This document shows, in pieces, positions 36,541 to 49,886 of a DNA stretch of 52,468 bases. Within the stretch, counting starts at the first letter, position 1, and the number at the start of each line of letters is the position of its first letter. The DNA is from Gammaproteobacteria bacterium (GTDB lineage: Bacteria > Pseudomonadota > Gammaproteobacteria > Natronospirales > REEB76). The stretch is from positions 1 to 52,468 of the forward strand of contig JAGWOR010000015.1 in assembly GCA_028870845.1 (NCBI GenBank). The letters are read 5' to 3'. The position numbers and the translations under genes were made by a program. A model generated the notes under the pieces. It searched no databases and was not told where the DNA came from. It saw only the letters and a program-made list of their open reading frames with translations.

Positions 36541-36577
36541 CCATCTCCCTGGATGGGAGGGGGCCAGGGTGAAGGTG
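36541..36577 (-). repeat. REP-like repeat, left copy (inverted)
   Basis: Read on the minus strand this stretch gives CCTTCACCCTGGCCCCCTCC and onward, a variant of the repeat at 36903-36940. It contains a small hairpin, CTCCC (36545-36549) with GGGAG (36555-36559). It directly precedes the DUF559 gene and is inverted relative to the copy after it. Confidence 0.6.
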
Positions 36578-36578
36578 A

Positions 36579-36899
36579 GTGAAGGGATTTGCGCAATATC
36601 TAAGGATTCACCAGACCGATGCGGAGCGGTTATTATGGAAGCAACTGCGAAACCGCCGCTTTGAGAGTTACAAATTCCGTCGCCTAGATTCCCTTGGACC
36701 TTACATTGTTGATTTTATCTGTTTTGAAGCGAACCTCTTCATTGAAGTAGATGGAGGTCAGCATACTGTGCAGCGGGAAACAGACGAAACCAGAAGCCAT
36801 TGGTTACGTTCGCGTGGCTTCACGGTATTACGCTTCTGGAACAATGAGGTACTTAAACAGATTCAGTCAGTGCTGGAAACGATTAAGCTGAATCTGTGA
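36579..36899 (+). CDS. DUF559 endonuclease-like protein
   Basis: A 106-residue protein of the DUF559 family, related to very-short-patch-repair (Vsr) and restriction-like PD-(D/E)XK nucleases. Family pattern: TDAERLLWKQLRNRRF, YKFRRLDSLGPYIVDFICFE, LFIEVDGGQH and LRSRGFTVLRFWNNEVL. The acidic residues of VDF and IEVDGG would form the active site. It starts at a GTG with a weak AAGG upstream. Base composition is clearly more AT-rich than its surroundings, and inverted REP-like repeats flank it, which suggests horizontal arrival. Function unknown. Confidence 0.85.
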   Translation: MKGFAQYLRIHQTDAERLLWKQLRNRRFESYKFRRLDSLGPYIVDFICFEANLFIEVDGGQHTVQRETDETRSHWLRSRGFTVLRFWNNEVLKQIQSVLETIKLNL

Positions 36900-36902
36900 T
36901 AT

Positions 36903-36940
36903 CCCCCTCACCCCAACCCTCTCCCGCAAGGGCGAGGGGG
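36903..36940 (+). repeat. REP-like repeat, right copy
   Basis: CCCCTCACCCCAACCCTCTC and onward, with a GC-rich hairpin CCCTC-TCCC-GCAA-GGGC-GAGGG at 36917-36938. This family of repeats is widespread in beta- and gammaproteobacteria. The copy starts three bases after the DUF559 stop and is in inverted orientation to 36541-36577; a third relative is at 49671. Confidence 0.65.
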
Positions 36941-43936: not shown

Positions 43937-44013
43937 CGCCCGGGCTAGATGCACGTCGCGGGCACGCTGGCGCAACACCCGTGTCGGGACCTTGCCTTCC
44001 GCCAGTTCCGCCA
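43937..44013 (-). pseudogene. 77-bp duplicate of the 3' end of the membrane GAF gene
   Basis: This stretch matches 47138-47214 with two mismatches in 77 bases. On the minus strand it reads ELAEGKVPTRVLRQRARDVH then LARAGV and a stop, almost the same as the C-terminus of the protein at 47129-48877 (I to V and M to V changes). The homology begins abruptly beside the CPBP gene stop (44025). It looks like the leftover end of a paralogous gene or a recombination scar. Confidence 0.75.
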
Positions 44014-47128: not shown

Positions 47129-48877
47129 TTATGTACTCGCCCGGGCTAGATGCATGTCGCGGGCACGCTGGCGCAACACCCGTGTCGGGATCTTGCCTTC
47201 CGCCAGTTCCGCCACGATGGTTTCATTGTCACGGGCGCGCAGGATGCGCAGCGCAGCACCCACGTCGCTGGCCACCTGGGTCAGCAGGGTTTTCTCGTCC
47301 ATGGCGTAATGCGTGCTCGGCCGGTTCTGACACACCACGGCACCGCGCAGGTTGCCCAGCACCATCATGGGGAACACGCAGCCGTCGTTGCCCAGGGCAC
47401 TGCCCACGTCCGGCAGTTCCACCGCGGTGCGCTCGGTGCGCAGCGCCACCAGCGCCGCATCATCGATGTCCAATTCCTCCGGATACTTATCCGCGCCGCC
47501 TTGGCGTAGCCGCTTGTAACCCTGCGTTTCCGCCGAATAGATGGCAACCGCCGGCGCGTTCATGCGCAGCTGGATTTCCCGCACTGCTGCATCCAGCAGC
47601 TTCGATGCATTTTCCATGTGGCCCGCCTGGCGGGCGAAGGCCCTGAGCGCATTTTCCGCCAAATATTTTCTGCGGAAGAACACCCGTTCCACGATGCGGT
47701 CCATGTACAAGCGCACACGGCCGAGAACGATGCCCAGGGCCAGCGGCACCACAATCTGCAGCAACAGGCCGGTGTGCTGGCCGAGCGTGGCGCGCAGGGC
47801 CACGCTGTTCAAGGCGGCTACGATGCCCACCACCAGCGCGGTGGTGGCGCCATATACCAGGGAGCGGTCCAGCACCACGGAAATATCCACCACTCGGTGG
47901 CGCAGCACCGTGTAGGCGAAACCACAGAAGCCGATGCCGATGAATGTGCTCTGCACTGCCAGGGTTGTGACGATGTCCATGACGGAGGTGTTACTCAAAA
48001 ATATGCTCACCAGCAGCATCGCAGTGCTGAACAGCAGCCACCTCAGGTGTGGTTTTTGGGACTGCAATGCGCGGCTGTAACCGACGACCAGCATGAGCGC
48101 CGGTACTATATAGGCAGCGGTGAACAGCATGCCAAATGCCGGCCGCATTAATCCTGCCCAGCCACTCACGGCAAAGATGAGATGCCCGCCCAGAATAGTG
48201 GCAATGCCAATGGCCAGGATCAGGGCAAAGCCAGAACGTGCGTAAAATCTAGTGCGTGGTTTAAGGCTTGTACCCAGGAGCGTTTCGATCATGAGATAGA
48301 AAGCAATGCGGCCCAGGCTGTAGGCGGCGATGGCCAGCGACTGCATCCAAAGACCGAGTGTGCCATCTGCTCCAAGTCCGTAGTTAAAGCCAAAACCGAG
48401 TGACGTGACCACCAGCCAAGCTGCCATATAACCGGCGGCCTTGTTTCGGCCGCGCCACAGGACCAGCAGTCCCAGTACCGAAAGCAGGAGGTTATTCCCC
48501 AAAAAGATCCAGCTGGAAACGAGTGCGCGCTGGCTGAGCGCGACAGGAACCGTGGTAACCGGTACGGTCGTAAGCATTTCTCCCCTGCGGACGACGATCC
48601 GGTAGGTCCGAGATGCCGGCAACGGGCCTTGCATGTCGTAGACAGCGATGGCGGAGCGAGTGCTCGAATCCAGTGCTTGCAGGTCAACATGGTCCCCCGT
48701 TTGAAATCCAGGAGGCAAAGGGATCCCGGCACTGGGATGCACCACCGCGGTGTGTGCGTCCATGACACTGAGAGAAAACGGGAAATCGTGGATAGTGAAC
48801 GAGCCCCAGGTAGTCCAGAATCCACCGACGAGCAAAAGAATGGAGAGGAATATCCGAAACCCAAAGGAATGTGACAT
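47129..48877 (-). CDS. Multi-helix membrane protein with C-terminal GAF-like domain
   Basis: A 582-residue protein. After an N-terminal helix (about 6-26) comes a periplasmic domain of about 100 residues, then seven or eight helices (about 120-385), a charged link (RIVERVFFRRKYLAENALRA) and a GAF-like domain (about 410-555). The layout resembles a sensor kinase input, but there is no histidine box or ATPase domain, so it may signal through a partner or be a shortened kinase. GGAGG five bases before the ATG at 48877 fixes the start. Its last 26 codons recur at 43937-44013. The divergent neighbour is a DHFR-like gene. Confidence 0.72.
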   Translation of the reverse strand: MSHSFGFRIFLSILLLVGGFWTTWGSFTIHDFPFSLSVMDAHTAVVHPSAGIPLPPGFQTGDHVDLQALDSSTRSAIAVYDMQGPLPASRTYRIVVRRGEMLTTVPVTTVPVALSQRALVSSWIFLGNNLLLSVLGLLVLWRGRNKAAGYMAAWLVVTSLGFGFNYGLGADGTLGLWMQSLAIAAYSLGRIAFYLMIETLLGTSLKPRTRFYARSGFALILAIGIATILGGHLIFAVSGWAGLMRPAFGMLFTAAYIVPALMLVVGYSRALQSQKPHLRWLLFSTAMLLVSIFLSNTSVMDIVTTLAVQSTFIGIGFCGFAYTVLRHRVVDISVVLDRSLVYGATTALVVGIVAALNSVALRATLGQHTGLLLQIVVPLALGIVLGRVRLYMDRIVERVFFRRKYLAENALRAFARQAGHMENASKLLDAAVREIQLRMNAPAVAIYSAETQGYKRLRQGGADKYPEELDIDDAALVALRTERTAVELPDVGSALGNDGCVFPMMVLGNLRGAVVCQNRPSTHYAMDEKTLLTQVASDVGAALRILRARDNETIVAELAEGKIPTRVLRQRARDMHLARAST

Positions 48878-49670: not shown

Positions 49671-49726
49671 TTGCCCTCACCCTAATCCTCTCCTGCCACG
49701 TAAGAAGGGAGTAGGAAGGAGGGCAA
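49671..49726 (+). repeat. REP-like hairpin, third copy
   Basis: The core CCCTCACCCTAATCCTCTCC is the same family as the repeats around the DUF559 gene (36541 and 36903). Here the ends are a perfect 8-bp inverted repeat, TTGCCCTC at 49671-49678 and GAGGGCAA at 49719-49726, so the whole 56 bases form one long imperfect hairpin. No nuclease gene accompanies this copy. Confidence 0.6.
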
Positions 49727-49771
49727 AAATGTATAAATGTTTATTTTGGAAAGCCATGAAAAGGTCCACTT

Positions 49772-49840
49772 CGTCATTCCAGCGGAAGCCGGAATCCAGT
49801 TTTATCCAGAGCCTGGACACCGGCTTTCGCCGGTGTGTCG
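49772..49840. repeat. Second repeat family (CGTCATTCC type), inverted pair
   Basis: CGTCATTCCAGCGGAAGCCG, continuing to GGAATCCAG, is followed after 13 bases by CTGGACACCGGCTTTCGCCG and GTGTGTCG, its imperfect inverse. Each half is itself a short palindrome around GGAAGCC or CTTTCG. Related repeats are common between genes in many proteobacteria. The pair lies 47 bases before the DUF1697 start. Confidence 0.6.
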
Positions 49841-49886
49841 TTTAATATTTAGTTACCTTTGATACTCGAAGGAGAAACAACGGTCC

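Follow-up and report, generated by a model that had tools for sequence, protein, structure and literature searches.

BoxC repeats, also described as PIT or TM(ECO) elements, were already known from E. coli in the 1990s, are recorded in >260 genomes and have been tied to genome instability (PMC4666352). They have a three-arm design and can occur as inverted pairs, five of which are given for strain K-12 in Table 1 of the same paper. The E. coli TM motif forms a triplex in vitro; a stable triplex in vivo is unsupported, and Holder et al. (2015) never found mobility genes around the motif (PMC4666352). The repeat was described there without a carrier gene.

In REP/REPIN systems, tagged hairpins in inverted orientation frame the gene of a RAYT (TnpA-REP), an enzyme of the HUH/Y1 type, and gene-less pairs and solitary copies are served in trans. 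The tag is GTAG or CGTC beside the palindrome (PMC3733652). Insertion sequences and MITEs have a related plan, with a single gene within terminal inverted repeats, dispersed copies and gene-less derivatives.

Among nucleases, YcjD has been placed in the PD-(D/E)XK superfamily and linked to Vsr (PMC1189080). The homing endonuclease I-Bth0305I (PDB 3r3p), whose catalytic domain is related to DUF559, has a single target and is unframed by terminal inverted repeats. A limited search of the open-access literature found no earlier report of a link between DUF559 and BoxC and, within the same limits, no known link of the YcjD/DUF559 family to repeats. DUF559 (PF04480) is the family to which E. coli YcjD belongs, and it had been without an assigned function.

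A DUF559 Gene Between Inverted Repeats

The window, i.e., the whole stretch of 52,468 nucleotides that was analysed, holds a DUF559 gene with a terminal repeat at either side (Table 1). A sequence-only reading of this DNA had described just such a gene bracketed by inverted hairpin repeats, and the description was borne out. The product matches PF04480 with an E value of 5.5e-38 (129.6 bits in a profile search, curated cut-off 20.6); the right repeat is exact in its core, and the left one is degenerate, with 2 mismatches among 18 specified core bases. The protein retains the invariant residues D45, E56, D58, Q61 and H62 (D...ExD...QH), and D45, E56 and D58 are invariant across 18 DUF559 sequences, the window protein among them. 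The gene is AT-richer than its surroundings, as the same reading had stated, with 45.8% GC against 60.1% for the window, which puts it in the bottom 0.6% of 321-nt windows. It is the single DUF559 gene detected in its own genome (2.42 Mb, 87.6% complete).

The right repeat (CCCCCTCACCCCAACCCTCTCCCGCAAGGGCGAGGGGG) begins 3 nt past the stop codon. The start codon directly abuts the end of the inverted left repeat, which is less worn in its G007 orthologue (L016). A third, gene-less copy, placed at 49671 by the sequence-only reading, is present at 49674. Genome-wide, the core has 3 exact copies and 11 overlapping matches at <=3 mismatches, compared with 4 for the reversed control pattern, and a head-to-head repeat pair lies on contig C36. 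Directly downstream of the cassette is a TPP riboswitch (Rfam RF00059, 37009-37131). It precedes thiC, a gene identified from its position and sequence. A cassette in the thiC leader region is found only in the window's genome (G000) and in G007, where the DUF559 gene has an early stop.

Table 1. Features of the cassette and of the solitary repeat, in positions of the window.
Feature	Positions	Strand	Basis
Left BoxC-type terminal repeat, inverted, degenerate; hairpin outside, tag on the gene side	36545..36578 (approx.)	-	Core match 36555-36575, 2 mismatches
DUF559 (YcjD-family) nuclease gene, 106 aa, GTG start	36579..36899	+	PF04480 match, invariant residues, predicted fold
Right BoxC-type terminal repeat: tag CCCTCACCC, linker CAA, stem CCCTCTCCC, loop, closing arm	36903..36940	+	Exact core match 36905-36925
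Solitary gene-less BoxC-type repeat	49674..49724	+	Core match, 2 mismatches; hairpin z -3.4

The pair in the window is a weak example of its own class. It scores just 18 in the motif-free test described below (threshold 36), and the individual window hairpins have modest folding z-scores (-2.0, -1.8 and -3.4). A repeat search confined to the window missed the family; the degenerate left copy can only be matched when mismatches are allowed. With such a left copy and such z-scores the window alone is not decisive, and DUF559 loci were therefore surveyed comparatively.

Framed DUF559 Genes in Other Bacteria

The survey took in 134 DUF559 loci from the window's genus, from a class-wide sample (184 genomes) and from one-per-species genomes across bacteria. 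In the motif-free test, the 150 nt on the upstream side of a gene were aligned with the reverse-complemented 150 nt on its downstream side, and a score of at least 36 was counted as matched. In the first set (same genus plus gammaproteobacterial sample) matched inverted repeats were found at 33 of 54 DUF559 genes (61%) and at 0 of 120 neighbours; in the second, across bacteria, the counts were 51 of 79 (65%) and 0 of 165. Pooled, 84/133 DUF559 genes are framed versus 0/285 neighbouring genes, and the enrichment at DUF559 borders on which the sequence-only reading depended is therefore present. Survey p-values are indicative only because the loci are related by descent. Neither far flanks nor shuffled flanks ever reached the threshold of this alignment, and about one third of the DUF559 genes are without recognisable matched ends. 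With a fixed motif, both ends were marked at 24 of 134 DUF559 genes compared with 0 of 196 controls, and the orientation with the tag beside the gene and the hairpin outside was seen at 73 ends versus 14.

Framed loci occur in Alpha-, Beta- and Gammaproteobacteria, Desulfobacterota, Nitrospirota and Chloroflexota (SAR202, Dehalococcoidia), as well as in a Planctomycetota bin, Aminicenantes, Rokubacteria, Kuenenia and others. Many of the positive loci come from MAGs, so that single taxon labels call for caution. The architecture and the wide recurrence of the cassette are computationally established.

Many DUF559 frames (L013, L018, L022, L026, L041 and others) read on into the 3' repeat and gain tails, e.g., PHPNPLPRGEG. 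Such C-terminal tails in database proteins are probably translated BoxC repeat. At L107 in Klebsiella pneumoniae (NZ_CP093490), a broken, unannotated DUF559 with BoxC repeats 3' of it lies between cysP and a Dyp-type peroxidase gene.

Anatomy of the Repeats

Moving outward from the gene, each end has a tag, a 3-nt linker (or a small extra hairpin), a stem, a loop and a closing arm. The sequence changes from lineage to lineage, with variants such as CCCTCACCC-NNN-CCCTCTCCC, CCCCCATCC-TAA-CCTTCCCCC and AAATCCCCC-NNN-CCCCCTTT; despite this variation, both ends of a given locus match one another. In 134 ends whose stem is asymmetric and pyrimidine-rich, the tag is closer to the mirror image of the stem arm than to a direct copy (75 ends versus 17), and the mean fit of the mirror set, 0.753, is higher than in all 200 shuffled sets (maximum 0.672). 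Since the C-rich tag is almost a mirror of the 5' stem arm, one strand could fold as a hairpin plus a third strand, i.e., an intrastrand triplex, for which such a mirrored third arm is required.

The three-arm design of BoxC is found in both places where it was sought, as the core pattern in the window copies and as the mirror relation over the 134 ends. The repeats are the BoxC or intrastrand-triplex (TM) motif, and the mirror design was derived from sequence before the published motif was matched. A BoxC copy ~165 bp downstream of E. coli ycjD agrees in every letter with TMECO no. 9 (PMC4666352). In contrast to BoxC as described, the repeats here form the two ends of DUF559 cassettes, in many phyla. 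Their mirror-image C-rich tag (CCCTCACCC or its lineage variants) also sets them apart from RAYT/REP elements. Left and right linkers, compared for distinct types (type A and type B), were identical in 6 of 24 cases versus 4.3 expected, a count that discriminates neither way.

Inverted pairs without a gene are found as well. From the coordinates in PMC4666352, four of the five K-12 pairs are oriented like the ends of DUF559 cassettes and lie 16-27 bp apart, and gene-less pairs of the same orientation, 23-34 bp apart, occur in G043, G051, G091, G101 and G125. In G051 and G125 the pairs (L072, L073, L083 and L084) mix two arms, CTCACCC/CCCTCTCCC and CTCATCC/CCTTCTCCC. This recalls the pairing of type A with type B reported for E. 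coli BoxC.

Dispersed Copies and Filled, Empty and Reduced Sites

Near-identical framed copies are dispersed in the manner of insertion sequences in G041, Sphingomonas cavernae and Legionella anisa. G041 has three cassettes (L025, L048 and L049) at unrelated sites, 89-98% identical over ~500-640 bp (the closest pair 98.3% over 534 bp) and nested within an outer inverted repeat (ACCAAAGGTATCTACACAAGTTGGTAACAACTGG). Of the 14 DUF559 matches in Sphingomonas cavernae, three are copies with 96-97% identity over 511-528 bp, and the likeness of these three ends shortly beyond the hairpins. Legionella anisa contains ~10 DUF559 copies and fragments, many of them 95-98% identical.

The search for empty sites in relatives that the sequence-only reading had proposed turned up filled, empty and reduced ones. 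In G008, which belongs to the window's genus, a decayed cassette lies between two genes that we take, from their translations, to be 3-hydroxyanthranilate-dioxygenase-like (3HAO) and amidohydrolase-like. In G000, G001, G002, G005 and G006 the same two genes abut. These are empty alleles from which the hairpin is absent, and both ends therefore arrived with the gene. Most of the Xanthomonas species examined, and Pseudoxanthomonas too, have the cassette between hpd and hmgA. Two Xanthomonas species (G222 and G233) have exactly one hairpin left at this spot, and G223 has a relic. The single hairpins look like precise loss; slippage between two palindromes would give the same result. The Xanthomonas cassette, like that at some other sites, is of old date and has descended vertically.

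Insertion sites vary between loci (thiC, 3HAO, hpd-hmgA and sapF-fabI). At thiC, the intergenic regions of relatives are too diverged for a base-level alignment of empty sites. By eye, no target-site duplication could be made out at the junctions in G008 or at the copies in S. cavernae. In E. coli, ycjD lies between sapF and fabI and is carried by 3365 of 5426 complete genomes, as a single-copy gene at one fixed site; it appears not to be moving there now. The sapF-fabI interval of ycjD-less strains was considered as an empty site and rejected, for the eef operon occupies the spot (PMC12817139), so that E. coli gives no clean comparison of filled and empty sites.

What has been observed comprises copies dispersed within genomes, sites with and without the cassette, inverted pairs lacking a gene, a preferred orientation and the association with DUF559, and the cassette is, with good probability, a mobile unit. 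It differs from insertion sequences and MITEs in its size (~400-530 bp) and in having no known transposase domain or recognised target duplication.

Candidate Enzymes

Genomes were counted as repeat-bearing when they held at least 2 repeat copies net of control (n=183 gammaproteobacterial genomes). DUF559 is over-represented among the repeat-bearing genomes (odds ratio 13.8, p 9e-10). The link of Y1 transposases with the repeats is weaker (odds ratio 4.0, p 0.006), and the DUF559 link persists within Y1-positive and within Y1-negative genomes. A second repeat variant is found mostly where DUF559 is framed by that same variant (4/5 versus 6/36 genomes, p 0.009). No match to the Y1 transposase profile (PF01797) was found in the window's own, 87.6% complete genome, and Y1 was also undetected in the repeat-rich genomes G053, G091, G126 and G170.

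The likeness to REP elements and RAYTs drawn in the sequence-only reading holds as an analogy, gene-less inverted pairs included. It fails on identity: the repeats are of the BoxC/intrastrand-triplex kind (PMC4666352), and the genome yielded no Y1. The cassette works like a RAYT/REP system or an insertion sequence, yet it is not a member of RAYT/REP, since the Y1 enzyme and the GTAG or CGTC tag were both tested for and neither was found; in place of the HUH/Y1 enzyme there is a PD-(D/E)XK nuclease.

A mobile cassette could nevertheless owe its movement to another enzyme (a RAYT/Y1 transposase) or to host recombination or replication slippage at palindromes, with DUF559 as a passenger in some other role. 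This is unlikely, although slippage can yield the single-hairpin loss seen in Xanthomonas, Y1 transposases do show their weak association, and 11 of 33 repeat-bearing genomes are without a strong DUF559 match (G023 among them has a degraded fragment). These 11 genomes are the main gap in the argument. The DUF559 association is the stronger one and is present in both Y1 strata, Y1 is undetected in the five genomes named above, and none of the 285 neighbouring genes is framed likewise, all of which speaks against another mover. RAYT was tested in this role and accounts for the repeats less well than DUF559.

Repeat-rich genomes without DUF559 include G051, G053 and G125. In G053, several BoxC repeats are no more than ~120 bases away from the end of a contig (C1, C7, C8, C19 and C20), and multi-copy cassettes may therefore be missing from the assembly.

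The predicted structure of the window protein (mean pLDDT 88) is nearest to 3hrl, a Neisseria DUF559 protein, followed by I-Bth0305I and, more weakly, Vsr. The relation to I-Bth0305I has an E value of 6e-5 by fold and 4e-4 by sequence profile. By profile and predicted fold, the protein is a member of the Vsr-like YcjD/DUF559 nucleases (PMC1189080; PDB 3hrl). Matches to transposase profiles were none, and defence-system profiles gave nothing useful. Toxin B subunits matched in a structure-sequence search at E 0.03 or worse and were judged spurious. A cutting enzyme whose family has mobile relatives would be a plausible mover.

The presence of I-Bth0305I and Vsr among the nearest folds is also what might be expected of a homing-type or host-defence nuclease that is carried beside BoxC hairpins already in place, or inserts into them, with the repeats serving as its target or as a safe place to land and spreading otherwise. 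The two gene-less Xanthomonas sites that hold exactly one hairpin fit this account and the mobile cassette alike. Varied sites and repeat-free empty alleles argue against homing: at the 3HAO/amidohydrolase alleles both ends came with the gene, and DUF559 cassettes keep conserved ends at differing sites, whereas a homing enzyme has a single target. Gene-less inverted pairs exist in addition, and the account is improbable.

That hairpins at gene borders act only on transcription, terminating it or insulating a small selfish or defence gene, and have no role in movement, is very improbable. PIT/BoxC elements were without promoter and terminator activity in earlier work cited by PMC4666352, neighbouring genes do not have the repeats, and neither the fixed tag-inside orientation nor the dispersed near-identical cassettes, with intact ends in recent insertions, would be explained. 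A chance placement of C-rich intergenic repeats next to a small gene, to which the degenerate left repeat and modest z-scores of the window could be credited, is refuted by the surveys (84/133 DUF559 genes versus 0/285 neighbours, with shuffled flanks never at threshold) and has a negligible probability.

Possible Mechanism and Implications

Movement of the BoxC-ended cassette by DUF559 itself is the best single explanation, and one that we favour with modest confidence. Positions 36545-36940 would then be a partly decayed minimal mobile cassette with the order hairpin, linker, tag, DUF559 gene, tag, linker, hairpin. The protein, a small PD-(D/E)XK nuclease and a relative of Vsr and I-Bth0305I, would most likely recognise the structured BoxC-type ends and nick or cut at them. 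The whole cassette, or in trans a pair of ends without the gene, would be copied or released and then inserted elsewhere, with the joining done by host repair. Solitary BoxC repeats and close inverted pairs would be non-autonomous derivatives or leftovers. We infer both the part of DUF559 as mobilising enzyme and this chemistry. Against the explanation stand the repeat-bearing genomes without DUF559, the fixed ycjD, the old cassette of Xanthomonas, the lack of a recognised target duplication and the unframed third of DUF559 genes. The idea of a mobile DUF559 cassette put forward in the sequence-only reading is largely supported.

The recurrence of the DUF559-BoxC pairing over many phyla suggests that the nuclease is the missing engine that spreads BoxC, and ycjD of E. 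coli K-12 makes DUF559 a concrete candidate enzyme for this spread. A wider proposal is more tentative, and we hold it as possible rather than probable: BoxC/triplex repeats may be the ends of unrecognised minimal transposable elements of many phyla, whose sole enzyme is a Vsr-like DUF559/YcjD protein that recognises the intrastrand triplex, and which mobilise gene-less pairs and solitary repeats in trans. If DUF559 does spread BoxC, the origin of a whole bacterial repeat class would be explained, a Vsr-like nuclease would be added to the enzymes by which repeat families are known to spread, and there would be a small enzyme with a possible capacity to read an unusual DNA structure.

Other Repeats in the Window

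Beside the solitary BoxC copy, at 49760-49850, there is another repeat-like palindrome (CATTCCAGCGGAAGCCGGAATCCAG and ACACCGGCTTTCGCCGGTGT), possibly of a second intergenic repeat family. A direct repeat of 77 nt is found at 43937-44013 and 47138-47214, 3.2 kb apart, and the 97% identity of its two copies suggests a recent duplication or gene conversion.
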